47,752 bases of DNA from Acidobacteriaceae bacterium (GTDB taxonomy: Bacteria > Acidobacteriota > Terriglobia > Terriglobales > Acidobacteriaceae). Made by a program: the position numbers and the translations under genes. The stretch is from positions 1 through 47,752 of the forward strand of contig JASHQE010000110.1 in NCBI GenBank assembly GCA_030037705.1, given 5' to 3'. The notes below the pieces were generated by a model. It made no database searches. It saw nothing but the letters and a program-made list of their open reading frames with translations, and had not been told where the DNA came from. Below, one piece after another: positions 18,775 through 45,039 of this stretch; positions within the stretch are counted from its first letter, which is position 1, and each line of letters opens with the position of its first letter.

Positions 18775-19305
18775 TCATCGCACGGGTTCATCGCGCGTAG
18801 CGGTGAGCGTGCTTAGATAAGCTTCGTACACCTCGTCTCCAAAGCACGCGAAGATGATCTTCTCGATCGCCTCATGTGCGTCCAGCGCCGCTCGCGTTTC
18901 GCGTGTGGCGATCTTCACGGCTTGCGGAATCGGATATCCATACACGCCGCAACTGATCGCTGGAAAAGCCAGCGTGCGCAGTCCGCGCTCGCGCGCGATG
19001 GCGAAGCAGGAGCGGTAACAGCTCGCCAGCAGCTCCGGTTCGCTATGATGGCCGCCGCGCCATACCGGACCGACGGTATGAATCACGAACTTTGCCGGCA
19101 GCCGGTAGCCTTTCGTCAATTTCGCCTGTCCCGTAGGACAGCCGCCGAGGGTGCGGCATTCGGCTACGAGTTCCGGTCCGGCGGCGCGATGAATCGCTCC
19201 ATCGACCCCTCCACCGCCCAGGAGCGTCTCGTTCGCGGCATTCACAATCGCATCCATGGCAAGCGTCGTGATATCCGTCCGGACTACCAAAATCCTATCC
19301 GCCAT
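18775..19305 (-). CDS. Macrodomain protein, O-acetyl-ADP-ribose deacetylase type
   Basis: The 176-residue protein is a complete single macrodomain. The ADP-ribose-binding motifs are [21 protein letters not shown] at residues 18-38 (Asn22, Asn25 and the [10 protein letters not shown] loop), [17 protein letters not shown], and [11 protein letters not shown] at 115-125. These match the MacroD/YmdB subgroup, which hydrolyses O-acetyl-ADP-ribose or removes ADP-ribose from proteins. It is cytoplasmic. The ATG at 19305 has a weak AGGT upstream. It lies 65 nt downstream of the PIN-domain gene, in the same direction, so the genes may be cotranscribed. Confidence 0.92.
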
Positions 19306-19370: not shown

Positions 19371-19832
19371 CTATGCGATCACGGCTTCCTTCGCCGGGTC
19401 GATGGTTTCCATACCCTCGACTGCAGCCGCCTCCAGCAGCTGGATAGACGATGAGACAAAGACAATGGGTGTGCCCTTAAACATGTCTCGCGCTGTGAGA
19501 GCCGCACCAAGCTGCAGAGCTTCTGGCCAGCGCAGAGCGGTGCGGTCGAGCAGTTGCCGCGCCGATTCGATCACGGCAGGATTCAGCGGCTGCTGGACTG
19601 TGCGCGCTGACTCCAGGCGCAAAGTCTCCAATGCCATGGCTGCGTCCGCGGATGCAATGTTTCCCGTCCGTTCCCGGCGGCGGATAGCTGCATAGACCTC
19701 GAGCGGAGTGGCTGCGGAGATCAACTTGCGATTATCCTCGACCAGTTCCAGCCGCCGGATCAGCGCATCCGTGCCGGGCTCTTGCACAAACAGCTTCACG
19801 AATGCCGTGGCATCGAGAAAGTAGAAGCTCAC
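19371..19832 (-). CDS. PIN-domain protein (VapC-like), atypical acidic residues
   Basis: This 153-residue protein has the VapC/PIN pattern: [16 protein letters not shown] (Asp7) at the N-terminus and [16 protein letters not shown] with a Glu near residue 45. A late [13 protein letters not shown] segment and [20 protein letters not shown] follow. VapC toxins are Mg-dependent RNases using four acidic residues. Here the third position (usually LDALHLA) is Glu and the fourth (usually FVTADxxLL) is Ser, so activity may be altered or lost. The gene starts with GTG at 19832, overlapping the upstream TGA as GTGA, so it is translationally coupled to the unknown 239-residue gene. Confidence 0.85.
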
Positions 19833-20548
19833 TCGTCCCCCCGTTCAACCTCGATCGCTTCGGCGGCAGCATCGCCTTGCACGGCTACGGGATGAAAGCG
19901 CTGTGCCTCTTCGGGAATGCCGGCCTCGGCCCGGTTCAGCCGGATGGTCGTGGTAGGATAGGCGGGCGTCTTGGGATTGGCGATCTTGCTGGTCATGACC
20001 ACGCCGCGTTGGATAGCTTCGGCCAGCACCGCCTGGCGCGTCTCCGGATGCTGATTCCACCGGAAAGCCTTGCGCGGCAAGAATGAATCGCGGAACCACT
20101 TGAGCGCGATGAAGGCGTGGCCGCCGCGCTCGGCTTCGGCCAGCGCCGCACATAGTTCCTTCACACGCGCGTCCATGTCGCCGGGCAGCCCCGCGTCAAG
20201 ATCCAGGTCTTCTTCCTCGGCAGTGTGGTTCAGCGAGACCCGCGGAGACCTGCCTGATCGTGCTGGCGGTTCGCCATCACCGATCCGCTCAAAATAGATG
20301 CGCACTTCATCATCTTCGGGTGACCAGGTATCAGCCGAAGCATTTCTCCGCTTGCTGCGCCCGTTTTCACTGCACAGCTCTACAATCGCCTGGTATCCCG
20401 GAGGCGCCAGAAAATGGAGGGCTCGCGCCAAACCAGGGTCAGATGAATATTGGAGTTCGTTTAATGCATCTTCAATAATCTCTTCTGCTGCAGGGATACT
20501 AAGATTACCGATTTCTACGCTGTTCTGTGCAGCCCTTGTCGACTTCAT
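19829..20548 (-). CDS. Unknown protein coupled to the PIN-domain gene (candidate antitoxin/partner)
   Basis: I do not recognise this family. From the ATG at 20548 (GGAGA 7-8 nt upstream) the product has 239 residues. The N-terminal third is acidic and helical (IPAAEEIIEDALNELQYSSD). The middle is charged and low-complexity (TAEEEDLDLDAGLPGDMDAR). The C-terminal part (residues about 140-215: HAFIALKWFRDSFLPRKAFR, HPETRQAVLAEAIQRGVVMT, SKIANPKTPAYPTTTIRLNR) looks like a small helix-rich domain with a winged-helix feel. The frame is open upstream to 20695, but no good start signal is there. Position upstream of, and overlapping, a PIN gene is that of an antitoxin, although the protein is far larger than usual antitoxins and lacks a known DNA-binding motif. 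Confidence 0.75.
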   Translation of the reverse strand: MKSTRAAQNSVEIGNLSIPAAEEIIEDALNELQYSSDPGLARALHFLAPPGYQAIVELCSENGRSKRRNASADTWSPEDDEVRIYFERIGDGEPPARSGRSPRVSLNHTAEEEDLDLDAGLPGDMDARVKELCAALAEAERGGHAFIALKWFRDSFLPRKAFRWNQHPETRQAVLAEAIQRGVVMTSKIANPKTPAYPTTTIRLNRAEAGIPEEAQRFHPVAVQGDAAAEAIEVERGDE

Positions 20549-21133
20549 TGCTTTCTCTCCGTTATTCTGATGCGCTACGCTGTCGGACTTGGCAACAGCC
20601 TTGTCCGGGCTGTTCGGGGGAAAACCACGCCGCGCGAAGGCATCCGCCTTTGCTCTAAGAAAAATTGTTTTGCTACTTCGGGGGACCCGGTACAAATTGC
20701 CTATCGGAACAGAACCGCTCCATTGAAAGCCTGATACGCCGCTCGCCAGAGGCTGAAATATACGCGGCCCGCTGGCACCTTAACCCGATTCCCGCGTTGC
20801 GCAAGCTCACCAGCGCTGGTTGCCACAACTGATTGGTTGATTCCGCAGACCCTTGCCTTGATCGGTCTAGCAAAAGGAGTCCGATGGCATTTTTCGAATC
20901 ATTGTAAGAAGGCCCATGGTATCCATAAGGCTTTTCACTGTCAAAAGCCATCTTTCTGTTTCTTCCATTCACCAGCGCGATTTCGGGAAAAAGCCTACTC
21001 GAATTGAAGCTATACGCTTCTCCAGTGTATTCGATATTACCCCCGCCAGCCTGTACCGACCAGCAGTTTTCAAGCAAAAAGTTGCCAGACCGGCAGTGCT
21101 TACTTCAGAGGAGCAAATTCGTACAATATAGGT
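20549..21133 (-). pseudogene. Possible decayed coding remnant upstream of the PIN pair
   Basis: There is no intact gene in these 585 bases. A minus-strand frame from 21077 to about 20800 reads like protein (NIEYTGEAYSFNSSRLFPEI, NRKMAFDSEKPYGYHGPSYN). A second minus-strand frame takes over near 20840-20730 (GNRVKVPAGRVYFSLWRAAY, QAFNGAVLFR) before a stop. This suggests one gene broken by a frameshift, but I cannot name a family and chance similarity is possible. The promoter of the PIN pair must also lie here. Confidence 0.25.
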
Positions 21134-23887
21134 ATGCGCCGTTGTCTGCAGTTTCTGTTGCCCTTGTTCTTGTGCTTTGCTTCAGCCGGACTGTGTGCCG
21201 ATGGACCGGCCTTCGACTTAGCCGGACCGAAGGTAGACGTGCATGTCAAACGCGGAAACGTCACCTTACCTATCTCCGAGATACCCAACCTGCTGACTGG
21301 CGACCGGCTGTGGATTCATCCCGATCTGCCCGAGAGCCAGTCCGCTCATTTTGTGCTGGTGGTTGCGTTTCTGCGCGGCTCTACGAATCCGCCGCCGCCG
21401 GAGTGGTTTACCCGCGTAGAGACCTGGAGCCGCGAAGCGCGCCAGGAAGGCGTCTTTGTCACCGTGCCGGACGGCGCTCAGCAGGCCTTGATCTTTCTCG
21501 CTCCGGAGACCGGTGGCGATTTCAATACTCTGCGCAACGCGGTCCGCAGCCGTCCCGGCGCCTTTGTCCGCGCCGCGCAAGACCTGCAGGCGGCGAGTTG
21601 GGAGCGGATGCGGCTAGAGGCTTACCTGTCGGACGTCAAAGTGACTTCCCAGACCGATCCCAAATCGCTGAAGGATCGTGCCGAACTGGCAGCCCGGAGC
21701 CTGGGCATCAAGATCAACCAGGACTGCTTCAACCGGCCCTTCGACCAGCAGGCTGCGTGCCTTGCACAAAACTCTGAGGGATTAGTTCTGGATGATGCAA
21801 ACGCCCAGTCGCTTGTCGACCAACTCACCAGCGGCTCCACGGCCGACCTGATGAATCAGCTCAGCTATTCAAGCATGGCAGGCGGAGGCGTTTATAGTCC
21901 CTACGTCGGCGCAGTTGTGGATACGGCCCGCATCCTGTCATCGCTTCACACTGCGCATTTCCAGTACATTCCGGCCCTTGCGCTGCCCACCGCCGACACG
22001 CTCAACCTCCGGTTGAATGTACCGCCATCGTTTCGCAACCCCAAATCAGTCGTGGTGGTTGCATTGCCTCCTCTTGGGCCGCCCAAGCCCGAACCGCTTT
22101 ATTCCGTCGATCCCTCCGGCAGCTTCTGCGCATATAAGCCTTCCCTCGTTTTGTCTGCCGAAGGTGCGCCGCTCGTCTTCGCGACTCAGCTTGCGCATGA
22201 TCTTACCCTCCGCATTGAGCCTGCCGGCGGACAGAAGGCTGCCCCGGTCGATCTACCTGTCAAGTCCGATCCGGGATTGGGCGGACTGGTCATCCAAGGC
22301 GCAATACCCCCGTTGCCTGCAGGCGATCTCACGGGGGTGGTCACTGGCAAGTGGGGCTTCGACGACTGGGAGGGTCCCAGTTTCCACCTGGTTGTAGCCG
22401 AACCCGGCAAATGGGTTCTTTCACCTGCGGATGAGTCCGCCCTTGTGGTTGGCCGCGACGACACGCTCCACTTTGAAGGCCAAAGCGCGCTCTGCGTTCA
22501 AAAAGTGGAGGAGCTGGCCGAAGGCGCCCATCCCGTGAATCTCACCTGGAAGTCTCCGAAGCCGGATGCGCTGGAGGTGTCGGTGCCGCTCAAAGACGCT
22601 GCGCCCGGTTCCGTGAATGTGGTGATCTACCAGTACGGGCTCAGGCAGCCGGACCAATTGAAGATGATTGCGTACGACGTGGCCGCATCGCTGAACGGTC
22701 TTACCCTTTCGGCAGGCGACGAGGAAGTCCTGCTCAAAGGCACACGGCTCGACCAGGTGGCGAAGGCCCGGATCGGCAATCTCAGCTTGACTCCAACCAG
22801 CCTTACGCGTGTGAACGATCTGGATCAATTGGTTATGAACGCCACAGGTTCTACCGCTGATCTGGTTCCCGGGAAGGACTATGTCGCGCGGGTTGAACTG
22901 AAGGATGGCCGCGTGCTGAAAGCACCGGTAACGGTGAACCCGCCGCGCCCGGAGATCGCTTTACTCAGCAAGGGTGTTCAGGACGCGACCGCCGGTGCAC
23001 CTCCGCCGGTGCAATTTGGCAGTCCTGACGACCTGCCCGTGAACGGCCGGTTGGTTTTCTTCCTCAAATCCAGCTCTCCGGTCAATTTTCCCCGAGACGA
23101 GAAAGTTGAAGTGGCAGCCTCCGACTCGAGCTTTCATACCATGCTGGATCTGGCCGATGGCAGCCTGATGCTCGAGGATGCGAAGACTGCTGTGGGTACC
23201 GTGGAGCCGCTCTCACGGTTTGGTTCTTCGGCCTTCGGGCCGATTCGCGTGCGCGCCATCTCGGCGGATGGTGCTGCGGGTGATTGGCTCTCGCTCGGGA
23301 CCCTGGTCCGGCTGCCTGTTTTCAAGGATTTACGTTGCCCGCACGCAGCTTCAAAGCCTTGCGTCCTCAGCGGGAATAACCTTTTCCTGGCTGATGCAAT
23401 TGCCTCTACGCCGGACTTCGGCAACCCGACTGAGGTGCCGCCTGAGTTCACCGGAACCCAACTTGTCGTCCCGCATCCGGCCGGCGGCGTTCTCTACCTC
23501 AAACTGCGCGACGACCCGGCGACGGTGCAGACGTTGACGATGCCGGTGATACCCGTCACTCTGCCAGCGGAAGCTGCCGCGATCAAGTCCCAGCCCGGCC
23601 CCACCCCGGTTCCTTCTTCACTCCAAAGCCCTACTCAACCCGCCACGGAGCCGGCGCCTTCCACTGCATCTCCGCCCGCCGATGCACCCAAACAGCAGCC
23701 GGCCTCGCCGTCTGTCCCGGCTCCATCCACGGTTCCGCAATCCCCTCACGCGGGTACTGCGTCCAGCCCATCTAACAGCCCGTCGACTAGCCCATCTAGC
23801 GGTGCGCCAGCAGACAAGAATCCACAGGCAGCCGCTCAGACGGCTGACACTCCGTCCACGCCGGATTCGGCCAAATCCAATCCGTAA
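21134..23887 (+). CDS. Large secreted protein of unknown function with Pro/Ser/Thr-rich tail
   Basis: The 917-residue product has a signal peptide (RRCLQFLLPLFLCFASAGLC, cleavage near residue 22). A domain at residues 30-150 (VKRGNVTLPISEIPNLLTGD, LWIHPDLPESQSAHFVLVVA) recurs, as I recall, in acidobacterial proteins of unknown role. A helical segment with two Cys (INQDCFNRPFDQQAACLAQN) follows, then a beta-rich middle built like successive Ig/TIG-type sandwiches (EEVLLKGTRLDQVAKARIGN). From about residue 820 the sequence is Pro/Ser/Thr/Ala-rich and disordered to the end. It is predicted periplasmic or cell-surface. The ATG at 21134 has only a weak upstream AGG. No function is assigned. Confidence 0.82.
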   Translation: MRRCLQFLLPLFLCFASAGLCADGPAFDLAGPKVDVHVKRGNVTLPISEIPNLLTGDRLWIHPDLPESQSAHFVLVVAFLRGSTNPPPPEWFTRVETWSREARQEGVFVTVPDGAQQALIFLAPETGGDFNTLRNAVRSRPGAFVRAAQDLQAASWERMRLEAYLSDVKVTSQTDPKSLKDRAELAARSLGIKINQDCFNRPFDQQAACLAQNSEGLVLDDANAQSLVDQLTSGSTADLMNQLSYSSMAGGGVYSPYVGAVVDTARILSSLHTAHFQYIPALALPTADTLNLRLNVPPSFRNPKSVVVVALPPLGPPKPEPLYSVDPSGSFCAYKPSLVLSAEGAPLVFATQLAHDLTLRIEPAGGQKAAPVDLPVKSDPGLGGLVIQGAIPPLPAGDLTGVVTGKWGFDDWEGPSFHLVVAEPGKWVLSPADESALVVGRDDTLHFEGQSALCVQKVEELAEGAHPVNLTWKSPKPDALEVSVPLKDAAPGSVNVVIYQYGLRQPDQLKMIAYDVAASLNGLTLSAGDEEVLLKGTRLDQVAKARIGNLSLTPTSLTRVNDLDQLVMNATGSTADLVPGKDYVARVELKDGRVLKAPVTVNPPRPEIALLSKGVQDATAGAPPPVQFGSPDDLPVNGRLVFFLKSSSPVNFPRDEKVEVAASDSSFHTMLDLADGSLMLEDAKTAVGTVEPLSRFGSSAFGPIRVRAISADGAAGDWLSLGTLVRLPVFKDLRCPHAASKPCVLSGNNLFLADAIASTPDFGNPTEVPPEFTGTQLVVPHPAGGVLYLKLRDDPATVQTLTMPVIPVTLPAEAAAIKSQPGPTPVPSSLQSPTQPATEPAPSTASPPADAPKQQPASPSVPAPSTVPQSPHAGTASSPSNSPSTSPSSGAPADKNPQAAAQTADTPSTPDSAKSNP

Positions 23888-29859: not shown

Positions 29860-31120
29860 ATGGAGCCAACCAAGGAAGCGGGAACAGGACCGGGCAGTGG
29901 AGTGAAGCCAGTAGCCGGCCCTGTAGTGCAGATCGATGAAGGGCGGATCCAAGCCCATTTGGACGAGGTGGTGCGATCAACGGTGGAAGAGACACTGAAC
30001 GCGCTGCTTGACGCCGAAGCGGATCGATTGTGCGGGGCCAGGAAGTACGAGCGCAGCGAGGGACGCAAGGACACACGGGCCGGCAGCTATGACCGCCACC
30101 TGCAGACCAAGGCAGGGGAGGTGACGTTGACGGTGCCGAAGCTCCGCAGCCTACCCTTTGAGACGGCGATCATCGAGCGTTATCGCCGGCGTGAGTCGTC
30201 AGTGGAGGAAGCGCTGATCGAGATGTATTTGGCCGGAGTGAGCGTGCGGCGAGTCGAGGACATCACGCAGGCCTTGTGGGGGACGAAGGTCTCGGCCTCG
30301 ACGGTGAGCGACCTGAACCAGAAGACCTACGGGAAGATCGACGAGTGGCGGTTGCGGCCCTTGGTGGGCGACTTTCCGTATGTGTTTCTGGACGGATTGT
30401 GGTTGAAGCGCTCGTGGGGTGGCGAGGTAAAGAACGTCTCGGTGCTGGTGGCCATCGGTGTTGCGCAGACCGGCTACTGGGAGACCTTAGCGGTAAGCGA
30501 AGGCGCCAAGAAGGCAAGGCCAGCTGGACGCTGTTCATGCGCGAGCTGAAGGAACGTGGCCTGAAGGGCGTGCAGCTGTTCGTCAGCGACAAGTGTCTGG
30601 GTTTGGTGGAGAACCTGGCCGAGTTCTATCCCGAAGCGAAGTGGCAGTGCTGCGTTGCCCATTTTTATCGAAACGTCTGGACCGCGGTTCCCTCGGGCAA
30701 GGTGAAGGGTGTGGCGGCGATGCTAAAGGCCATCCATGCTCAGGAAGATGCACAAGCAGCCAGAGAGAAAGCCCACCAGGTGGCGGCAAAGCTACGCGAG
30801 TTGCGATTGGCTCGGGCAGCAGAGATTGTCGAAGCGAGCATCGACGAAACGCTGACCTACTATGCGATGCCCACGGAACACTGGCGCTGCCTGCGCACCA
30901 ATAACCCGCTGGAGAGGCTGATGCGAGAGATCCGACGACGAACGCGTGTCGTGGGCGCGTTTCCAGATGGAAAGAGCGCACTGATGCTGGTAGCGGCAAG
31001 ACTGCGGTATGTGGCAGCTACCAAGTGGGGGACCAAACGCTATCTGCAGATGAACAGGCTGGCTGAGGTCAGAGCCATTGCCTGAACGAACCAAGCAAAA
31101 AGGCTGTGCAAATATGGAAC
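29782..31120 (+). mobile_element. IS256-family insertion sequence (approximate ends)
   Basis: A mutator-type transposase reading frame (29860-31085) is flanked by imperfect terminal inverted repeats. The left end carries GGCTATTTTTCGCACATT near 29782-29799. The right end, read inward from about 31117, gives CCATATTTGCACAGCC. The core ATTT-GCACA is shared. An element of about 1.34 kb fits the family. No clear 8-9 bp target duplication could be found, so the limits may be off by several bases. It sits between the Wzi gene and gmd. Confidence 0.75.
29860..31085 (+). pseudogene. IS256-family (mutator) transposase, single frameshift
   Basis: The first frame (29860-30510, 217 codons) carries the N-terminal part typical of Transposase_mut: VEETLNALLDAEADRLCG, the ERYRRRESSVEEALIEMYLA stretch, SVRRVEDITQALWGTKVSAS and the first catalytic Asp in YVFLDGLWLK. 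The remainder is in the -1 frame from about 30510. It has KASWTLFMRELKERGLKG, the second Asp in LFVSDKCLGLVE, and a C-terminal NNPLERLMREIRRRTRVVGA containing the catalytic Glu. The joined length of about 408 residues is normal. One missing base at CCAAGAAGGC (30506-30515) explains the break. No slippery heptamer is present, so decay or a sequencing error is more likely than programmed frameshifting. Confidence 0.85.
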
Positions 31121-31457: not shown

Positions 31458-33379
<1,922 letters not shown>

Positions 33380-33569
33380 GTTGGATTAGCCTGAACCAAA
33401 GATCTGCAATTTGGATGACGCTGGTGTAATTTAATCCCCGACCAAGCGCCGAAGGTGCGGACAAATTGACGCCCCAATCAATCTGGTGAGCCGCGTGGCA
33501 CCCTACCCTGCAGAGAGATCGCTCCATGGGACAGGTAAAGCGCTATCGCGAAAACCCGAATCATAATCA

Positions 33570-34454
33570 TTATAACGGTTCGTTTCTATATTGTACGAGG
33601 TCTGCCAGCATTCCTTTGCGGGCCGCCCGCAAAATCTTTATGGAGAGCTTTGGATTGATAAAGAGGAGGCGGATGACGTAAAGAATAATGTAGAGTATTG
33701 TGAATTGACTGTACTCTCTAATCATCACTATTTTATTCACAACATCTTTTTCGATCCGCATCATGTCATGGTTCTTCAATTTTCGGCTGGAACGTGCACA
33801 ATCATGGATGATTACAAAATCCCGGCAGTATAATAGCGGGCCAATCTCGCGTGAAATCGACAGAGTGTAATAGGTATCATCGCTGTAGATGAAGAATTTC
33901 TTGGAAACAATTCCAACGGTCTGAATCGTTTCTCTTTTGAGCAGAAGGCCTACAAAGCTCGCAAAGTCCACAGGACAGTCGCCCGTGAACTCTCCGATGT
34001 GAAAGTCGCTTCCAAGATGCCGCAACGGGTTGTACGCAAGCGCATTGATTCCGGGTCGATTCATGTTGCAGGAAGAACCGTCGGGGTATGTAACGCGAAA
34101 GGCGTACGCTGGAGGAGCAGAGGAATCTTTTGAATGCAAGTATTTAAGCAAACTACAGTATGAAAATGCCGGCCATGCATCATCATCGAACATGAGAAGC
34201 CATTCGCAGCAGGTATTTTCAACAAAGTAGCGCATAACCCTGTTGAATCCACCGCTGCCACCCTCATTCTTTTCCGAAAAGATTGTGCGAATGCCCGCCT
34301 GCTCGCTCAAATATTCGCGCGTACCGTCGTTGGACTTGTTGTCAATTACCAGAATCTCGGCAAAGCCGAGTCTGCGGCATTCAGCCAGCGTCTTGACCAA
34401 CTTTTCCTTTCGGTTAAGTGTCACTATTCCTATCAGCACTTGCGCATCAGCCAT
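33570..34454 (-). CDS. GT2 glycosyltransferase, galactofuranosyltransferase-like
   Basis: This 294-residue GT-A enzyme begins VLIGIVTLNRKEKLVKTLAE. It has KNEGGSGGFNRVMRY at about residues 62-76 and the metal-binding FDDDAW at about 89-94 (a DDD motif). The pattern matches GT2 enzymes of the galactofuranosyltransferase type (GlfT-like). Its location 30 bases downstream of glf, in the same direction, supports UDP-galactofuranose as donor. A hydrophobic stretch near residue 245-262 (YIILYVIRLLF) may anchor it to the membrane. The ATG at 34454 has a GAGGAG about 13 nt upstream. The acceptor is unknown. Confidence 0.85.
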   Translation of the reverse strand: MADAQVLIGIVTLNRKEKLVKTLAECRRLGFAEILVIDNKSNDGTREYLSEQAGIRTIFSEKNEGGSGGFNRVMRYFVENTCCEWLLMFDDDAWPAFSYCSLLKYLHSKDSSAPPAYAFRVTYPDGSSCNMNRPGINALAYNPLRHLGSDFHIGEFTGDCPVDFASFVGLLLKRETIQTVGIVSKKFFIYSDDTYYTLSISREIGPLLYCRDFVIIHDCARSSRKLKNHDMMRIEKDVVNKIVMIREYSQFTILYIILYVIRLLFINPKLSIKILRAARKGMLADLVQYRNEPL

Positions 34455-34486
34455 GTTCGCAGGGGGGCTCCTCTCTATTGAACCAG

Positions 34487-35596
34487 TTAGGGTTGGTTCC
34501 GAATATACGTTGCGGCCAGATTCAATGCTTCCTCAATTGTAACGTGCATATCAAGATATCGATAGGTTCCGAGGCGGCCTGCAAATGTTGTCCTCTTATC
34601 CTGATGAGCTAATTTTGCATACCGGTCGAGAACCCGCATGTCATCTTGTAATCGAACCGGATAATAGGGTACGTCATCTTCTTCACACGCCTTGCTGTAC
34701 TCCCTGAAAACAATCGTACGATCATGAATCTCCCATGGAGCGAAATGCTTGTGCTCGCTGATGCGGGTCCATGGGACATTCTCGTCGCAGTAATTAATTA
34801 CAGCGTTTCCTTGAAAGTCTCCTTCATGGACTTCGGCAGCGAAGTCCAGCGTACGGTAGGTCAGCCTGCCCTCCGAATAGCCGAACCATTGATCTAAAGG
34901 GCCGGTATAGAAAGTGTGTTTATAGCCTTGGGTGTCCGGTCTCAGCAGCTTCGCTCCGACATGGACTGAGATGTTTTTGTGATCGAGCATTCGTTCGATA
35001 ACATAAGTGTATCCATTAAGTGGGATACCCTGGAATCTCGAATTGTAATAGTTATCGTTATAGTCGAACCTAACAGGCAGCCTCTTTAGGATACTCGCTG
35101 GCAATCTCGCCGGATCAACGCCCCACTGCTTGGCCGTATAGCCGCGGAAAAAGGCCTCGTAAAGTTCTCGACCGACGAAGCGCAATGCCTGCTCTTCAAA
35201 GGTACGCGGTTCGCGGATTGATTGATCGCTCAGTGACTCGAGAAATTTCCTTGCCTCCGCAGGAGATAGTACCTTGCCAAAAAACTGGTTGATTGTCAGC
35301 AGATTAATTGGCATGGAATAAACACGCCCGCCAGCGAGTGCCTTAACTCGATTAGTAAAAGGTACAAACTCATCGAATTCACGCACGTAATCCCAAACCC
35401 GCGCATTGTCCGTATGAAATATATGCGGCCCGTGCGTGTGAACCATGATCCCGGTATTCGGATCTCGTGCTGTGTGGCAGTTTCCGCCGATATAAGATCG
35501 CGCCTCGAAAACATCACACTGAAAACCGGCTTGAGCCAATTCACGCGCGATAACCGCGCCGGAGAAGCCCGCCCCGATTATACATATTTCACTCAC
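34487..35596 (-). CDS. glf: UDP-galactopyranose mutase
   Basis: The 369-residue flavoprotein has the normal length and the diagnostic motifs: CIIGAGFSGAVIARELA (FAD binding, residues 5-21), YIGGNCHTARD, HTHGPHIFHTDNARVWDY, and FFRGYTAKQWG. RTTFAGRLGTYRYLDMHVTI near the C-terminus matches the conserved flavin and substrate region. It interconverts UDP-galactopyranose and UDP-galactofuranose in the cytoplasm. The GTG start at 35596 is supported by GGAG 7 nt upstream. It precedes the GT2 galactofuranosyltransferase gene. Confidence 0.96.
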   Translation of the reverse strand: MSEICIIGAGFSGAVIARELAQAGFQCDVFEARSYIGGNCHTARDPNTGIMVHTHGPHIFHTDNARVWDYVREFDEFVPFTNRVKALAGGRVYSMPINLLTINQFFGKVLSPAEARKFLESLSDQSIREPRTFEEQALRFVGRELYEAFFRGYTAKQWGVDPARLPASILKRLPVRFDYNDNYYNSRFQGIPLNGYTYVIERMLDHKNISVHVGAKLLRPDTQGYKHTFYTGPLDQWFGYSEGRLTYRTLDFAAEVHEGDFQGNAVINYCDENVPWTRISEHKHFAPWEIHDRTIVFREYSKACEEDDVPYYPVRLQDDMRVLDRYAKLAHQDKRTTFAGRLGTYRYLDMHVTIEEALNLAATYIRNQP

Positions 35597-35714
35597 TGCA
35601 TAACTCCGCTATTGCGCGCCGAGTCACGCCCAGGCTTCGGATCCAAATGAGTTGCCGGGGCGGCCTCTGGAGATCTTCGATTCGTTCAGTTGTACGCTCA
35701 GACACGCGTTGCAG

Positions 35715-36821
35715 TCAATCCGCACATACCGATTCAGTGTCGCCATGACCGATGGCTTGCTCTGACAGCAACCGCTCAAGATCTTTCAGCTGTGACCGAT
35801 AATAAAATGTTTCGAGAAAGGTCTTCCTGCATTCTTCACCGTAAGTTCTGATGTGGGTACGAAAGTGTACCAGCGCATCGGAAATACCGATCAGATCATT
35901 GCCCGATGTGAATCTCCCGTTCCTTCCCTCCGTGATGAACTCCGGAAATGAACCGATTCGGCTTGCAAGGACAGGGGCGCCAAACATCAGGGCTTTTGGG
36001 AGTACCGCACTTTGTGTCGACCTGCGGTACACGTTCCACACGCAGAAGCTTTCGGCATAGCAGCGATTCATCTCTTCATTGCCCAGTGGTCGCCCGCATC
36101 GGAATTCGACTTTGTCCAGATTCTGACGGAGAATCGGATCCTTAAGGACACTTTCAGAAAGCTGATTGCGGGAAGCAATCAGAAACCGGACATCCATGTC
36201 TTGCTGCAGCGCATAGCGCATAAAGGCGAGGTAATGGTCAAAGCCATGAGCGCGGCACAGGCCGCCGATAAAGCTGAAATAGCGCTTCAGACCCTGCAGC
36301 TCCGCTAAATCTCCCGGTGCCTCATCATCGAGAATTAGAGGGAAGTAGACAGAATTCCGGTTGAACTTGGCATCCCCCTTCCGATATTCATTGAGACCAT
36401 AGCGAGACGCAAGGATCACAGTGTCGGCGAGTTTCAAGCTAGGTACTGTTACGTGGTGGGCCGCGATCGCCTTGCAGGTTGCCAGAAGGCCCTCACCCCA
36501 CACATAGCGAAGAGACAATTGCCACGGCTCATGGAACACGTAGAGGATCTTGGCGCCCTCGCACCTGAGTCTGATTGCCAACTTCTTATTCTCGACCGAT
36601 GGATTGAGAAAGACTGCATGTGTCCAAGAGGTAGGGAGCGGAATCTGATCAAGCGCAAAGACGGCCGCTGTCTCTTCTAATTCGCTGAAACGCCGATATG
36701 CCGGGTCCAACAGGAATGCGACCTCATGTCCAAGTACGCGAAGTGCTTTTGCGTAGGCCAGAAGGAACTGTATGAACGCGGGATTGGAACGCAGCGATAC
36801 AAGAGCAACCTTTGCCGTCAC
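35715..36821 (-). CDS. GT4-type glycosyltransferase
   Basis: This 368-residue GT-B glycosyltransferase has an N-terminal domain with LVSLRSNPAFIQFLLAYAKA. The C-terminal Rossmann domain contains FSFIGGLCRAHGFDHYLAFM, VWNVYRRSTQSAVLPKALMF and GAPVLASRIGSFPEFITEGR, the GT4 donor-binding signature ending in an E-x-x-x-E-like arrangement. The sugar is unknown. A GTG start at 36821 overlaps the stop of the upstream polymerase gene as GTGA, so translation is coupled. Confidence 0.85.
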   Translation of the reverse strand: MTAKVALVSLRSNPAFIQFLLAYAKALRVLGHEVAFLLDPAYRRFSELEETAAVFALDQIPLPTSWTHAVFLNPSVENKKLAIRLRCEGAKILYVFHEPWQLSLRYVWGEGLLATCKAIAAHHVTVPSLKLADTVILASRYGLNEYRKGDAKFNRNSVYFPLILDDEAPGDLAELQGLKRYFSFIGGLCRAHGFDHYLAFMRYALQQDMDVRFLIASRNQLSESVLKDPILRQNLDKVEFRCGRPLGNEEMNRCYAESFCVWNVYRRSTQSAVLPKALMFGAPVLASRIGSFPEFITEGRNGRFTSGNDLIGISDALVHFRTHIRTYGEECRKTFLETFYYRSQLKDLERLLSEQAIGHGDTESVCAD

Positions 36822-37978
36822 GACAATTCCCCTCGCGGTTCAGATGCGATGCCGGTAGAGCTCTCCGTAATGAGGAGGCGACGTAAGGTCCGCGTCAGGT
36901 TGAAAAGGTGGGGTAAGAAGAACAGCAGGAGTATGATTTGTGCAATCAAAAACGTGAATGTATCCTGAGACCGCGAGCGCGGAAAAAGCACGCACATCAA
37001 GCCAGCGAAAAGACGTGCCGAATACATCTGATACTTGACTAAGAGGCGGTCGACTACACGAAGCAGCGCTCCAAGGAGTCCTCCGGCGATTATGGCGGTC
37101 AGAAGGGAAGGCGTGTAATAGAAAATCTCGCCCAACCATGTAAAAACCGAAACCGCATCTACTGAGCTATCATTGGTTGAGCTTAGACACAGAGTCATTT
37201 CCATATTGAAGGAGAATATTGTCTTGTGGAATAGGAAGGCAGGGAGGAATTTTTTCAGAAATTCTAGAATATAGCTGTACCACGGGGCGGATCCACAATT
37301 CCCATTCAGCATTAGGCCCAAATTGATAAATGGCCACATGATGCCAGTGAGCAAGGCGTTCTGCCCCCCTGCGGAGTCGCCGCGGAACGCGGAAGCGGCA
37401 GCAAACGCCGCCAGTCCCAAACAGGCGCCGACAAGGACCCGTTTCCAATTGGAGGTACTCCCCAAAACAACGGCCATGACGGCCATCAGCATGAAGCCGC
37501 GGCCCGAACCTGTCTCATAAAAAAGGAACATTACGGCGATCGCCCAAAGGATCCACCTTCCGTACCGCGATGTTCTCCCCGTCGCATCAATCAATGCAAA
37601 TGGCAACAAAAGGAAGATATAGCCAAGCAGGTCTGCTATCCCTCCTCCTTTTGACATGCTCGCATTAATTCCTTCAATCTCCTGGGCCACTCCTGCGCCG
37701 TGAAGCAAAAACATGTTTGTACGCAAAAGCTGTCTACCAAAGAGCGCATCTCCTATGAGATACAGCGAAGCGAAGCCCGCCAGAACAGTACAGGTTGCCG
37801 TGGAAATCTGTCTGATTGGAGCAACCGGAGGAGGTCCGCTGCGGAGGCAAAACCACCACACGGGCAGGGAAGCCGCGATCGTGTAGAGTATCGCCCGCGG
37901 CCCAGCCACCACGGCGCCAGGAAGCCCCCACAGAAGAAGCCCCCCAATCATGAAATACCCCAGGGGTATTCGGCTCAT
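36818..37978 (-). CDS. Wzy-like polysaccharide polymerase (multi-pass membrane protein)
   Basis: The 386-residue protein has about ten hydrophobic segments and a large non-membrane loop in the C-terminal half (about residues 230-285, with GNCGSAPWYSYILEFLKKFL). Together with flanking glycosyltransferase genes, this layout fits an O-antigen or exopolysaccharide polymerase. Wzy proteins have little sequence conservation, so the assignment rests on topology and position. The segment FETGSGRGFMLMAVMA-like region recalls the charged residues of the family. It overlaps both neighbours by four bases (GTGA and ATGA), giving a tightly coupled block. Confidence 0.72.
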   Translation of the reverse strand: MSRIPLGYFMIGGLLLWGLPGAVVAGPRAILYTIAASLPVWWFCLRSGPPPVAPIRQISTATCTVLAGFASLYLIGDALFGRQLLRTNMFLLHGAGVAQEIEGINASMSKGGGIADLLGYIFLLLPFALIDATGRTSRYGRWILWAIAVMFLFYETGSGRGFMLMAVMAVVLGSTSNWKRVLVGACLGLAAFAAASAFRGDSAGGQNALLTGIMWPFINLGLMLNGNCGSAPWYSYILEFLKKFLPAFLFHKTIFSFNMEMTLCLSSTNDSSVDAVSVFTWLGEIFYYTPSLLTAIIAGGLLGALLRVVDRLLVKYQMYSARLFAGLMCVLFPRSRSQDTFTFLIAQIILLLFFLPHLFNLTRTLRRLLITESSTGIASEPRGELS

Positions 37979-39129
37979 AGAGTATGCAGCTTCCGCAGAG
38001 ATTGGGTGGACTGATCTACATACGTCTTCGCCGCTGAAGCATCAATACAAGGTGCGTTTCTGGTAGCATTTATTGCCAGTCTCGCGAGAGCCTGCGGCTC
38101 AACGGGCCAGTCTGTGTATGCGACCTGACCTGGAAATGCAGCAGACAAGGTTGAATCGGCTCCCCAGCGGGTAGTGATGAGACTACGCCCGGCAATGAGC
38201 GCCTCGACCGATTTGATTTTGACGCCCGTTGTAGGCCCAACAGGATTCACGACAGTGCTGATTTGTCGGTAGTATTCTGCAGTAGAACGAATACGACCTA
38301 GAATTCGAGCGCCTCCTTCTTCTAAAGCACGCAGCACCGACGAAGAGACTGTGTTGCAGATTCCGCCGGCGACCAAAAGCTCGACTCCGCCGTCGGCAAT
38401 GCCTGCGAGGAATTCAGAGTGTGCCAATGTGCGCAGGATCTCCTCGTTCGCATAGCTTGGTGCGCCCATGAAACCAATGCGTTGGGGTCGCTCTCCCGAC
38501 GCCAACTCCATCAAATCCAAATAATTAGGCGGAACGAATCTAAGTACAAAGGGGCGAATGCCATAGAGCTGTTCGAATTCTAGCGCATCGTCTTCGGAAA
38601 CCGCCACACAGCGGGTTCTGGAAAGGAAGATTGCTTTCTCTTCGGTAAAGGTCGTGCTAATCCAGCGGCGCGTTCCGATTCGTTTGTGCCGATCGGCCAT
38701 AATATCGCCTAAATCCGCGATGACCTTGCTCCCAGCGCGCTCCAAACGAAGGAGCCGATGTGGCCAAGAATAATAGCACACAATGAGGTCGTAACGGTCG
38801 ACCCAACTGCGCGGGAGAGGCGTTCGCAAAGGGAAATAGAAACGGTCGATCCATCGGAGTCTATTGCAGAGAACTACTCCTCCGCCATACCACAGTGTTG
38901 TGTTCAGCCGTGCGGCGAAAGGAAAGAACCCTTGAAGGACTCTGACCGGGAGTTTGGCCTCGACCAACCACTCGCGGGCGGTTGCCGGACTCGCCCCCAT
39001 CGATAGCAGATCGACCGATTCTCCGTAAATCGAGCAAAGAGTTGAAAGGAGCTGATGTTGCAGTTGGGTCATTCCGTTGTTGGCGCACATATCGAGCGGA
39101 GAAACATATAGAACGCGCGGTCGCTTCAC
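37975..39129 (-). CDS. GT4-type glycosyltransferase
   Basis: The 384-residue GT-B enzyme begins VLYVSPLDMCANNGMTQLQH, as in GT4 proteins. It has YDLIVCYYSWPHRLLRLE mid-N-terminally and RIGFMGAPSYANEEILRTLA at the domain boundary. TTGVKIKSVEALIAGRSLIT near residues 305-324 forms the donor-phosphate-binding part. The GTG start at 39129 is backed by GGAGG 8 nt upstream. It overlaps the Wzy-like gene by ATGA. It probably adds one residue of the repeat unit; the specificity is unknown. Confidence 0.87.
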   Translation of the reverse strand: MKRPRVLYVSPLDMCANNGMTQLQHQLLSTLCSIYGESVDLLSMGASPATAREWLVEAKLPVRVLQGFFPFAARLNTTLWYGGGVVLCNRLRWIDRFYFPLRTPLPRSWVDRYDLIVCYYSWPHRLLRLERAGSKVIADLGDIMADRHKRIGTRRWISTTFTEEKAIFLSRTRCVAVSEDDALEFEQLYGIRPFVLRFVPPNYLDLMELASGERPQRIGFMGAPSYANEEILRTLAHSEFLAGIADGGVELLVAGGICNTVSSSVLRALEEGGARILGRIRSTAEYYRQISTVVNPVGPTTGVKIKSVEALIAGRSLITTRWGADSTLSAAFPGQVAYTDWPVEPQALARLAINATRNAPCIDASAAKTYVDQSTQSLRKLHTL

Positions 39130-39217
39130 GAATCAGTCCTCCTATGAATAGAGCGCGGTACTTCGCGCCCGTCCGGGTTCGGAATAAAAGGACCATGGGA
39201 ACATATGTGATCATCCC

Positions 39218-39907
39218 CTATCGCTTCGCGAATCGCCTCATGATCTCCAAGCCGATAACACGAGGTATTGAACTGAGTCCGACATGGCGAATAGCGACCC
39301 AGTGGCGTTGGTTGTAGCCCTGTTCCCACCAACCGTCGCCGTATGGTGGGAACAGGGGCGCCTTTGTCCGTCGAAAAAAGGCGGTCGTTCTAACGACACG
39401 GTCAAGCGAGAACATCGTATCTTTTCGAAGTATATCCACCATGTTGGCAATGTTAGGAATTTGAATGTCGTCGACTACCAGCCATCCGCCAACCCGGATG
39501 TGCGGATAGAAAAAGTAGTACTCCAAATCTGGAAAGGGATAGCCATGGGGCCCGTCCAGCAGAACCAGATCAAATTCGCGGTCGAACTGATAGGTGGGCA
39601 AAGTCTGCTGGGTACTGCCCAGCACAAACTCGCACACGCCGGTTTTCAGTAGATCGCAACCTTTTACCAGGCAATAGGAATGCTTTTCCGGATTCTCATC
39701 AGGCGCGAGATCGCGTGTAAAGACGAGGTGCCGCTGCGAAGCGTGCGAGAGAGCAAGCGTACTCTTTCCACATCCTGTTTCGGCGGTATTCTTCGCGCCT
39801 TCGGCGCATTGGAAGATGTAGTCCACCACCGCTAAATTGAGAGAGCCGCTTTGGTGCCAGCTACCGTGGAGCGAACGAATGGACTCAAGAATACTTGGTT
39901 TGGACAC
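39218..39907 (-). CDS. SAM-dependent methyltransferase (Methyltransf_24-like)
   Basis: This 229-residue class-I methyltransferase has the glycine-rich AETGCGKSTLALSHA at residues 42-56. DLVLLDGPHGYPFPDLEYYF (about 113-132) and RVGGWLVVDDIQIPNIANMV (about 137-156) follow, the pattern of the methyltransferase_24 family. The G-x-G motif is GCGKS, with the usual first D/E-x-G as ETG. It likely methylates a sugar hydroxyl of the polymer, because it belongs to the cluster. The GTG start at 39907 has AGGAG 6 nt upstream. It heads the leftward run, next to the divergent promoter region. Confidence 0.82.
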   Translation of the reverse strand: MSKPSILESIRSLHGSWHQSGSLNLAVVDYIFQCAEGAKNTAETGCGKSTLALSHASQRHLVFTRDLAPDENPEKHSYCLVKGCDLLKTGVCEFVLGSTQQTLPTYQFDREFDLVLLDGPHGYPFPDLEYYFFYPHIRVGGWLVVDDIQIPNIANMVDILRKDTMFSLDRVVRTTAFFRRTKAPLFPPYGDGWWEQGYNQRHWVAIRHVGLSSIPRVIGLEIMRRFAKR

Positions 39908-39933
39908 GCGGTTCTCCTGACACGGGTCTTGTC

Positions 39934-39952
39934 ATCTCAGTTGAAGTGAGAT
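39934..39952. promoter_or_regulatory. Dyad ATCTCA-N7-TGAGAT in the divergent region
   Basis: ATCTCA (39934-39939) is the perfect reverse complement of TGAGAT (39947-39952), with a 7-base loop. It lies 26 bases upstream of the GTG of the methyltransferase gene and would fold in its 5' leader or serve as an operator. No regulator is known from the window. The sequence is AT-balanced and may be a chance dyad. Confidence 0.3.
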
Positions 39953-40034
39953 CGACGTATGTACAATGCGAATGGTGGGACGCAACACAGACAAAGCGTA
40001 GTAATAGAACCCATCGATTTTGTGTTCTCTCGTT

Positions 40035-40040
40035 TATAAT
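40035..40040 (+). promoter_or_regulatory. Perfect -10 box TATAAT upstream of the rightward GT4 gene
   Basis: TATAAT occurs at 40035-40040, 60 bases before the TTG start. A convincing -35 hexamer is not seen at the ideal distance. Transcription would begin near 40047, just before the terminator-like hairpin at 40060-40084. Confidence 0.35.
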
Positions 40041-40059
40041 ACGACATTGAAAGGTGCGT

Positions 40060-40084
40060 GCCCTACCTTCCTAGGTGGGCTTTT
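40060..40084 (+). terminator. Terminator-like hairpin in the leader of the GT4 gene
   Basis: GCCC-TA-CCT (40060-40068) can pair with AGG-T-GGGC (40073-40080) around the loop TCCT. TTTT follows at 40081-40084. The structure lies between the candidate TATAAT promoter and the TTG start at 40100, so it could work as an attenuator. Alternatively it is just an upstream terminator. Confidence 0.4.
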
Positions 40085-40099
40085 CGATGGTGCGGGTGA

Positions 40100-41242
40100 T
40101 TGCATTCCGTCATTTTCTACAGCGAATCTGAATTTTTTGGCGGGCATGACAAGATGGCTCTGGCAGCGCATCGGGCGATTCTCCGCCATCACCAGACAAT
40201 CGCCATTACTTGGCTAATCAATGATGAGAATCATAGACTTGCGTCAGCGCTTGACGAAGCTGGGTTGGCCTACATCGCTGTGGACCTTAAACCTTTCTCG
40301 CGGCTTGTCCGCAATCCCTTGGCCGTTCTCAGAAAAATCATTCGATGCACGCAAATTTTCAGGACACTAAAACCCGAACTTGTCGTCCTTTTGCAGGGAT
40401 GGATCATGGACGGTTTCGACGGAGTCCCTGCGGCGTATCTTGCCAGTGTTCCCTTTTGCAGTTACATCCCCCTTGCTCATAGCCCTACCGAACTGGCTTT
40501 GCATAAACTGCCGAAAGTTCGGGCTGCCATCCTTAGGGTTTTCTTCAAGTTCATTTCTCGCTATATCACGATCGACGAACAACAGGCGATACGCCTTCGT
40601 AATTGGCGGCGTAATGCTCAGGTTGTAGTGGTTGAGAACTTTATTCAGCGTCCGGCGACGACCGCGCAGTGCGCGCCTGGAGCCAGGCAGCATCTCGGGC
40701 TTCCTGCGCATTCTACTGTGCTGGGCGTCGTTGGTCGAATTAGCTTCTGGCAAAAGTCCCAGGACTGGCTGATCGAAGCGCTAGAGGACAGCACTATCCT
40801 CGAAGACAAATTGCTGGTCTTTATCGGCGACGGCCCAGATAGATCAAGGCTCAACGAGTTGATAGAGTCGTCGCCCTGGCGCGCCAAGATATTTCAAGCC
40901 GGATGGCGTGAAGATTCGACAGAAATCTATGGTGCCCTGGATTTGCTTCTCATTCCCTCAAGAGCAGAGGGGGTTCCCCTCGTGATGATAGAGGCGCTGG
41001 CGCGGGGAATTCCAGTCGTTGCGACCGACCGAGACGGTATGAAATCCTGGTTGCCTCCCGCATGGCGATTTCCATTCGGCGACTCAATCGCCATGCAGCA
41101 ATGCATCGCGCGGGCCCTCTGCGGGGATGGGTCCGAATATTGGGAAGAGATTAAGCGCCGCTTGGCGATGGCCATGGATGAGGACCGGTTTGGCAGACAA
41201 TTCAGTGAAGCTCTGACTGGATTCAGCGCTTCGCCTAAGTGA
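40100..41242 (+). CDS. GT4-type glycosyltransferase
   Basis: The 380-residue GT-B enzyme starts HSVIFYSESEFFGGHDKMAL, the expected GT4 N-terminal strand and loop. It has VLGVVGRISFWQKSQDWLIE at the domain junction and LLLIPSRAEGVPLVMIEALA (about residues 285-304), the E-x7-E signature of GT4 enzymes. The start codon is TTG at 40100, directly after an in-frame stop; no ATG or GTG would keep the N-terminal strand. The upstream GGGTGA is too close to be a good Shine-Dalgarno, so initiation may be weak or leader-dependent. It is followed on the same strand by an acetyltransferase gene. Confidence 0.88.
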   Translation: MHSVIFYSESEFFGGHDKMALAAHRAILRHHQTIAITWLINDENHRLASALDEAGLAYIAVDLKPFSRLVRNPLAVLRKIIRCTQIFRTLKPELVVLLQGWIMDGFDGVPAAYLASVPFCSYIPLAHSPTELALHKLPKVRAAILRVFFKFISRYITIDEQQAIRLRNWRRNAQVVVVENFIQRPATTAQCAPGARQHLGLPAHSTVLGVVGRISFWQKSQDWLIEALEDSTILEDKLLVFIGDGPDRSRLNELIESSPWRAKIFQAGWREDSTEIYGALDLLLIPSRAEGVPLVMIEALARGIPVVATDRDGMKSWLPPAWRFPFGDSIAMQQCIARALCGDGSEYWEEIKRRLAMAMDEDRFGRQFSEALTGFSASPK

Positions 41243-41300
41243 GTAACTTCAGTCCATTGCGCTTGTCATGATCATTCGGAACTCTAAGAGAAATTACTGA

Positions 41301-41876
41301 GTGAGTGGCCTTATGGAAATCTTGCCTTGGATCAAGAAGCGCATCGGACCGAGAGGGAGAAGGTTTATCCGCCTTCTGATTGAATTGTGGCTGTGGTCGG
41401 TATCCTTCGCGCCATCGCATCTGCTGCGCGTCATAGGATTGAGACTCTCGGGAGCCAAGATCGGCCGCAATGTCGCGATTGGCCGGGGCATCAGAGTTCT
41501 CCATCCATGGCGGCTCTCCATAGGATCAAATACCATCCTTGGCCTCAGGGTCTGTCTAGATGGAAGAGGGAGCTTAACCATTGGCAACAACTGTAACATT
41601 GCCGATGAAATTGCAATTTGGACCGCGGAACACGATATCCAGTCCCCTGATTTCGTGATGACTGAAGGGGCAGTAGTCGTCGGGGACCGGGCGTGGATCT
41701 GCCATCGCTCAATCCTCCTGCCCGGTATTACGATCGGAGAGGGATCTGTCGTAGCCTCAGGATCAGTCGTGACGAAAGATATTCCGGCTTTCTCCGTAGC
41801 AGCCGGGATTCCGGCTAGAGTCATTGGGAAGAGAAATGCCAACCTTAGATATAAACTCGGGAGAAATGTGCTGTGA
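41301..41876 (+). CDS. Left-handed beta-helix (hexapeptide) acetyltransferase
   Basis: The 191-residue protein is a hexapeptide-repeat acyltransferase. Short I/V-G-x-x repeats run through residues 48-110 (RNVAIGRGIRVLHPWRLSIG, SNTILGLRVCLDGRGSLTIG, NNCNIADEIAIWTAEHDI) and again at 130-180 (GDRAWICHRSILLPGITIGE, GSVVASGSVVTKDIPAFSVA). The likely catalytic His is in TAEHDI. The family includes WcaF/WbbJ-type enzymes that O-acetylate polysaccharide sugars with acetyl-CoA. A GTG start at 41301 is used; ATG at 41313 is an alternative. It lies 58 nt after the GT4 gene and likely shares its transcript. Confidence 0.9.
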   Translation: MSGLMEILPWIKKRIGPRGRRFIRLLIELWLWSVSFAPSHLLRVIGLRLSGAKIGRNVAIGRGIRVLHPWRLSIGSNTILGLRVCLDGRGSLTIGNNCNIADEIAIWTAEHDIQSPDFVMTEGAVVVGDRAWICHRSILLPGITIGEGSVVASGSVVTKDIPAFSVAAGIPARVIGKRNANLRYKLGRNVL

Positions 41877-41934
41877 AAGCTCTGGATTCATGACCCGCAG
41901 CCCCCGCACGCTTCTTGCCAACACTACAGCCTAT

Positions 41935-42699
41935 TCATTCCATACGTTTCCTTGCAAGCACAACGCAGTTACAATAATACTCGTATCTCTTAGGCAGAAT
42001 CGTATTGAGGCAGAGAGCAATCAATGTGCATGGAAAGATCACAAATAACTGCAGCGAATACCGCAGAGCTCGATTGTCGGGAATGAGATGCGTCAGATAT
42101 GAGATGAGCATTTGAAACACAGCACACAAATATGTCGTGGTCTTTCGAATGTCAACGATTTCATAGCCGCATTTCTCAAGAAGATGCGAAATTCCGAAAC
42201 TTGTATACCTAGCATAGTCGTAGGGAATCTCATGCTCATTCCACGCAAATGGAATGGAGACCAACAACTGCCCAGACTCCTTAGTAACCCGACGGATCTC
42301 CTTTATAATTTCAGGCAAATTAAACACATGCTCGAATACCTCAAAGGATACGACCGCGTCGAACTGACTGTCCTGGAAAGGTAGACTTTTACCATTGTAG
42401 AAAACATCAATTTTACTATCGCTGTGATTGTGTCCAGTACCCTCCAGATCAACCCCAATGTAAGCCGCGGCCCTAGGAAACAGTGACTCATATGGCTTCG
42501 AACCGCAGCCAAAGTCTAGGACGTCACCTGAGATATTCTGCCCCAGATCCCTTATGGCGAGAAATAGCCCGCGACGAATGATATAGGCGGGATTGACCAC
42601 CATGCTCAGCAATGTGGGTCGAAAGCTCTCGCAGCGCGCGCGGTTGCGTAATCGATCGATACCATGCCGTAATTCGTATCCTAATGAGCTAAGGGGCAA
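41935..42699 (-). CDS. Class-I SAM-dependent methyltransferase (Methyltransf_11 type)
   Basis: The 254-residue protein has VLDFGCGSKPYESLFP at residues 60-75 (SAM motif I), YIGVDLEGTGHN for motif II, and LPFQDSQFDAVVSFEVFEHV for motif IV. EIIKEIRRVTKESGQLLVSI follows. The C-terminal part has two hydrophobic stretches (about residues 195-235) that may give membrane association. The TTG start at 42699 is supported by GAGGAGG about 10 nt upstream. The reading frame overlaps the upstream TylF-like gene by 19 bases, so the two are coupled. It likely methylates the growing glycan. Confidence 0.87.
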   Translation of the reverse strand: MPLSSLGYELRHGIDRLRNRARCESFRPTLLSMVVNPAYIIRRGLFLAIRDLGQNISGDVLDFGCGSKPYESLFPRAAAYIGVDLEGTGHNHSDSKIDVFYNGKSLPFQDSQFDAVVSFEVFEHVFNLPEIIKEIRRVTKESGQLLVSIPFAWNEHEIPYDYARYTSFGISHLLEKCGYEIVDIRKTTTYLCAVFQMLISYLTHLIPDNRALRYSLQLFVIFPCTLIALCLNTILPKRYEYYCNCVVLARKRME

Positions 42700-43478: not shown

Positions 43479-43594
43479 TATTACGTCCTCCTTGGAACTC
43501 TAAGCCGGCTGTATTCGATTCTGCGGTGTCAGATGCAGTGAGAACAACTCAAATCTCAGTGCAGAGATTCTGTCTGTATCATATCCGTACGATC

Positions 43595-44971: not shown

Positions 44972-45039
44972 AGAGCCAGCCTCAGAATCAGCATGTTCCG
45001 CAGCTCACGTTGAAGGTCTCAAGTTCCATGATCATCACC

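Follow-up and report, generated by a model that had tools for sequence, protein, structure and literature searches.

Two genes on the reverse strand of the window, meaning here the whole analysed stretch of 47,752 nucleotides from a soil Acidobacteriaceae bacterium, encode a large 239-residue protein (the partner) and a VapC-like PIN-domain protein, and the pair is best explained as a derivative of a VapBC module. This explanation, which we hold to be reasonably probable as a whole, considers the pair to be a toxin–antitoxin system in the distant members of the family and the PIN protein to have become the subunit of a regulator in the clade of the window (Terracidiphilus and its kin). As for the window copy itself, the case is close to evenly balanced that the PIN protein is no longer an active toxin and that the pair has a different function, which could be that of a regulator complex binding DNA. 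The features of the pair are listed in Table 1.

Table 1. Features of the partner–PIN gene pair, with positions in the window and residue numbers of the encoded proteins.
Feature	Residues	Position	Strand	Description
Partner gene		19829..20548	(-)	239 aa, ATG start; likely new antitoxin-like family
PIN-domain gene (VapC-like)		19371..19832	(-)	153 aa, GTG start
GTGA start/stop overlap		19829..19832	(-)	4 bases common to the partner and PIN genes
Ribosome-binding-site-like GGAG		20557..20560	(-)	8 nt 5' of the partner ATG
Partner N-terminal domain	14-90	20279..20509	(-)	Predicted helix-helix-strand-strand, block mean pLDDT 73-89
Partner predicted winged-helix domain	122-209	19922..20185	(-)	From the model; best VIA Z 8.4
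Partner C-terminal tail	217-239	19832..19900	(-)	Drifted version of the putative PIN-binding tail
PIN acidic site 1	Asp7	19812..19814	(-)	In the clade, Glu in 73/81 and Asp in 8/81
PIN acidic site 2	Glu45	19698..19700	(-)	Glu in 104/104 PINs
PIN acidic site 3	Glu104	19521..19523	(-)	Asp in 21/23 distant relatives
PIN acidic site 4	Ser129	19446..19448	(-)	Asp in 22/23 distant relatives

Both in the window and in the homologous loci, the partner gene lies upstream of the PIN gene on the same strand and overlaps it, as antitoxin genes do in VapBC modules, and the antitoxin–toxin order and the four shared bases reported by the first-pass annotation are confirmed by the coordinates. The overlap geometry is identical in 77 of the 80 homologous loci from named genomes, indicating that it is more than chance, and the GTGA sequence would probably couple the translation of the PIN protein to that of the partner. 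Regarding the beginning of the partner, an alternative TTG codon would extend it to 288 aa; the ATG is preferred, since it is supported by the homologues. The GGAG element is also present in the consensus of the 45 upstream regions, out of 73, that were aligned, in which little else was seen of a conserved operator.

The proposal of a toxin–antitoxin role carried the reservation that it would be wrong if homologues of the 239-residue gene stood mostly without a PIN neighbour, and the opposite was observed. Of 26 other homologous loci, 24 have a PIN gene next to the partner, as have all 80 loci from named genomes (80 of 117 confirmed loci being kept, with one record named Rhodoferax, perhaps misbinned) and 17 of 30 loci from distant or odd genomes, a set which includes odd loci chosen on purpose and two that end too soon to tell the PIN state. 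Among the named relatives carrying the pair are Terracidiphilus gabretensis, Occallatibacter savannae and Acidicapsa dinghuensis. The partner occurs in 27 of 200 sampled genomes of the same taxonomic family (its own genome included), in 76 of 298 sampled from the order, with a patchy presence outside the genus, and in 7 of 297 sampled from the phylum. Inside the genus, among the genomes listed, 41 have a partner match (its own included) and at least one, G255, has none, while the PIN gene is present in 58 of 59 genomes and in all 32 of the most complete ones, G255 and G631 retaining it only as a fragment at a contig start. With such a distribution, the patchy and mobile spread known from VapBC is not seen within the genus. 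A single query, member L028, found no match of the partner on plasmids. A viral origin was also considered and discarded, as none of 20 pattern matches in viral contigs was a relative by tblastn; the sole match under 1e-3 in a Foldseek search of BFVD, with an rmsd of 17.4, was distrusted.

The window PIN protein matches PF01850 with an E-value of 1.3e-6, scoring 29.5 bits where the cut-off is 23.6, and a PF01850-type match was obtained in 24 of 24 members at E up to 0.01, as expected of the PIN-domain toxin of a VapBC pair. Its fold was taken from the homologue at locus L152, modelled as an artificial read-through chain of partner and PIN (mean pLDDT 88.6 and pTM 0.48, with tail blocks at pLDDT 60-76), where the PIN part resembles PAE0151 with a Z of 15.9 and VapC toxins with a Z near 14, consistent with a downstream protein of the VapC-like nuclease kind. 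The four conserved acidic residues of such toxins are not all present in the window, whose quartet is DEES, compared to mostly DEDD or EEDD outside the clade. As seen by the count over 104 PINs (81 in the clade and 23 outside it, L165 and L166 being left out), site 1 is acidic in all of them; in the clade, site 3 is Asp in 46 of the 81, with E, S, A and others elsewhere, and site 4 is Ser in 64 and Asp in only 6. The first-pass annotation had noticed an Asp-to-Glu and an Asp-to-Ser change at two acidic positions, and this reading of Glu104 and Ser129 is right, because aspartate occupies sites 3 and 4 in nearly all relatives outside the clade (Table 1). In the clade, 123 of 152 alignment columns are more conserved than site 3 and 102 of 152 more than site 4, the corresponding numbers outside the clade being 21 and 15 of 147.

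Judged by dN/dS, both genes are under purifying selection in the window's clade. The medians for the PIN gene are 0.194 (624 pairs, dS 0.1-1) and 0.148 (1880 pairs, dS 1-2) and those for the partner 0.156 (356 pairs, dS 0.1-1) and 0.126 (1868 pairs, dS 1-2), the pairs being non-independent of each other. The PIN sequence is kept but its acidic site is not, which suggests a use other than catalysis, and from its residues the window PIN has probably lost catalysis.

The alternative that the pair is a fully working toxin–antitoxin system in the window too, with the PIN protein cutting RNA via Asp7, Glu45 and Glu104 and the partner neutralising it, seems unlikely. Glutamate can sometimes stand in for aspartate. 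The invariance of site 2, the constantly acidic site 1, the still recognisable tail, the preserved overlap and the canonical look of the distant members would all suit a toxin that has remained active; however, the rarity of Asp at site 4 in the clade and the variability of site 3 are hard to reconcile with it. Four conserved acidic residues are described as required for PIN catalysis in PMC3384007, and substitutions of acidic residues abolished the toxicity of other PINs according to PMC6265470 and PMC10440598, the latter, the NetFlax paper, also dealing with antitoxin modularity. The near fixation of the gene in the genus speaks against this alternative as well, when compared to PIN genes overall, which are far more uneven, a genome carrying between 1 and 71 of them in a set of 13.

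The usual form of the motif at the C-terminal tail of the partner is G-x-P-L-S-x-x-I-x-x-x-R, and distant members end with sequences such as GEPLSATILRERR. A number of related PINs are preceded by antitoxins with the same kind of ending. The Calothrix plasmid PIN, the best plasmid match of a distant member's PIN (E 5e-12), follows an AF2212-like (PF01954) antitoxin of 97 residues with the C-terminus GGKPLSEIIIEERGLM, and the PIN of Thermus pTT27 follows an antitoxin of 96 residues with the C-terminus GLGLSKAVLADREGR, RHH-like by PF20605 with a score below its cut-off. Across the phylum, tails of this type also occur before related PINs on bodies that look Phd-like and TPR-like by eye. At locus L230, the motif terminates a 291-residue open frame resembling TPR repeats, also by eye.

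A strict version of the motif, written after seeing the tails, matches 25 of the 121 partners in the family, 11 of the 15 tails used for comparison (four being without it) and 2 of 5797 control C-termini. Relatives also carry other PINs, of which 18, out of 27 loci tried, were read by a pattern-based approach; none of the 27 candidate frames preceding them has the motif. The comparison tails comprise 13 loci besides Thermus and Calothrix: from 28 of 30 related-PIN loci tried, 11 gave no PIN start by pattern and 17 gave an upstream ORF, three of which are family loci (one being the window), and L222 repeats L221, leaving 13 for comparison. Concerning plasmids, five of eight records with a related PIN were examined and the upstream antitoxin was read in four, the motif being present in Thermus and Calothrix and absent from two Deinococcus antitoxins preceding related PINs; the Rubrobacter record has no annotated gene immediately in front of the PIN. 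In VapBC and FitAB complexes, as described in PMC3384007 and PMC6265470, a C-terminal arginine of the antitoxin occupies the acidic site of the toxin. These similarities suggest that proteins with quite different bodies share a single short tail for binding the PIN.

In the window's clade, the strict motif remains in only 7 of 82 partners. PINs lacking the fourth Asp have a partner without the motif in 72 of 75 cases and with it in 3, and PINs possessing it have a partner with the motif in 19 of 27 cases and without it in 8; the trait changes only four times on the tree (built without L023, L166, L167 and L168), so the association cannot count as independent evidence (median p of 1 in a sign test). 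Alignment A1 excludes L005, which equals L004, and L026, which has a stop inside the chosen start; for alignment A3, 60 rows were chosen, the short L145 being dropped, together with others for redundancy.

The partner was previously noted as unusually large and as no known antitoxin, which holds after the family searches. With E allowed up to 1, neither Pfam nor PADLOC has a match for it; its sole NCBIfam match is FapR, at 14.9 bits against a cut-off of 183; this identity was rejected, the score of the window protein being far under the cut-off and FapR being matched in 8 of 60 members with a best E of 0.0064. When 60 family members were scanned singly, no convincing match was obtained, the best E being 0.037 in Pfam and 0.0064 in NCBIfam, and the family profile found nothing among PDB sequences at E up to 10. 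None of these searches yielded a known family, and no account of this one was found in a literature search which reached few subscription papers.

Regarding its structure, the AlphaFold model of the partner (mean pLDDT 74.4, pTM 0.42) points to an alpha/beta domain at the N-terminus and to a winged helix, the two being separated by disordered residues 92-120 and followed by a tail helix of low confidence. The N-terminal part had no family match in the whole-protein searches. The best VIA matches are a RecQ-type winged helix and VanR, with rows mainly covering residues 115-214 and a Z of 8.4 that is middling by the tool's own note, and a Foldseek search of the model against the PDB gave nothing under 1e-3. 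Most of the invariant residues of the partner family are located in the winged-helix region, which would probably bind DNA, as is usual for a VapBC antitoxin. The partner likely represents a large kind of antitoxin that forms a new family and ends in a VapB-type tail.

The PIN gene and the tail are mostly lost together. When the tail is scored by profile extent, it occurs together with a PIN in 106 of 121 loci, both are missing in 10, the tail stands without a PIN in 3, and 2 loci end too early to tell. Two of the three tail-without-PIN loci come from one genome, G151, whose last residues look unlike a tail, and the other, L149, is a true exception, with a good tail and no PIN beside the partner. 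A partner with no PIN match was found at L158-L164 (g44), L143, L144, L145, L148, L149 and L155, although L148 stops within the partner gene and L161 132 nt beyond it, both being uninformative on the PIN; the g44 genomes G151 and G044 were entered twice, also as L019 and L020. On the partner tree (52 rows without L145, L148, L166, L167 and L168, several long branches, root not fixed), the presence of the PIN requires four changes, three of which coincide with tail loss. All seven tail-less g44 loci retain a divergent 917-residue gene, six of them being long enough to show the absence of the PIN, and the PIN was therefore lost in place there; in the distant PIN-less loci, that gene is not within the short flanks read. 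The reverse case is L204 (genome G109), where PIN and tail are kept behind a short upstream protein without the winged-helix body.

It could be supposed that the partner is a chromosomal regulator to which PIN and tail are an optional add-on, the pair not being a toxin–antitoxin system in origin. In agreement with this, the partner body persists in at least three lineages that lack both PIN and tail, g44 having it at the orthologous locus, which implies a PIN-independent role there. However, this origin is improbable: the tail matches those of unrelated PIN antitoxins, distant members have a VapC-type PIN whose acidic sites are intact, and most rows of the tree (41 of 52, the root not being fixed) possess the PIN.

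The 917-residue gene, divergently oriented from the pair and located at 21134-23887 in the window, accompanies it in 75 of the 80 named-genome loci; its product has a signal-like start, by eye, and no Pfam match. On the other side, a macrodomain gene at 18775-19305(-), matching PF01661 with E 1.1e-48, lies on the same strand 65 nt beyond the PIN stop, the distance given by the first-pass annotation. The further idea that it ties the pair to ADP-ribose or nucleotide metabolism is very improbable and already contradicted, since this neighbour is found only in the window, being absent from all 26 other loci with flanks of at most 1.5 kb and from all 80 loci with flanks of at most 5 kb. Elsewhere in the window, a Mutator-family (IS256-like) transposase at 29860-31085 is split over two overlapping frames covering PF00872 profile positions 11-201 and 204-369, and appears frameshifted. 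It is followed at 31458-46332 by a run of sugar-nucleotide and glycosyltransferase-like genes (both named by eye) and Wzz genes (by profile) with a GC content mostly of 0.48-0.55, compared to about 0.54-0.66 before, perhaps an acquired exopolysaccharide cluster.

Comparing the pair to known systems, it resembles VapBC (FitAB, Shigella VapBC and Mtb VapBC11) in having the antitoxin gene first, an overlapping PIN gene with a VapC-kind fold, and an antitoxin combining a DNA-binding-type domain, predicted here, with a C-terminal tail bearing an arginine. It differs in the 239-residue partner of no known family, with its predicted winged helix and extra N-terminal domain, and, in the window's clade, in the two decayed acidic sites and a near fixation in the genus instead of a patchy presence. 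The Thermus RHH-like, Calothrix AF2212-like, Phd-like and TPR-like antitoxins share the tail motif before a related PIN, but their body domains are different and the first two have 96 and 97 residues. The PIN partners listed in Makarova 2009 (PMC2701414) include COG2442/DUF433, some fused to a winged HTH; the predicted winged-helix antitoxin beside a PIN gene is similar, whereas the DUF433 profile of Pfam matches 0 of 60 partner members at E up to 1. Finally, the conserved macrodomain neighbour of macrodomain-linked systems is not shared by the pair.

Returning to the explanation of a VapBC-derived pair, the two ideas first proposed, a divergent toxin–antitoxin type and a PIN module recruited for another task, each find support: the former from the PIN adjacency and the tail motif common to other PIN antitoxins, and the latter in the window's clade, where two acidic sites are decayed and the pair is kept. 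Both genes would originate from a type II toxin–antitoxin module of the VapBC kind, whose antitoxin would be the upstream protein, in which a disordered linker joins an alpha/beta domain at the N-terminus to a winged helix probably binding DNA, with a tail at the C-terminus. By analogy with known complexes, the tail may hold the PIN protein and put an arginine into its active site where that site is intact. Most of the distant members have canonical acidic residues and a canonical tail, and their pair is probably a working toxin–antitoxin system. In the clade, found at one largely syntenic locus with a drifted tail, the PIN would be a non-nuclease subunit of a partner–PIN complex acting via the winged helix, for example by regulating its own or neighbouring promoters.

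More tentatively, and with somewhat less than even confidence, the module may have been domesticated across the genus, the PIN being a non-catalytic pseudo-nuclease and co-regulating subunit of a new family of winged-helix regulators and the tail a plain assembly tail, with sister lineages having dropped PIN and tail together and kept the regulator. The partner adds an antitoxin-like family for which the searched copies of Pfam, NCBIfam and the PDB sequences have no counterpart. As canonical-looking, decayed and PIN-less versions occur within one bacterial order, their steps can be directly compared, which makes the pair a test case for how toxin–antitoxin modules may turn into ordinary genes.
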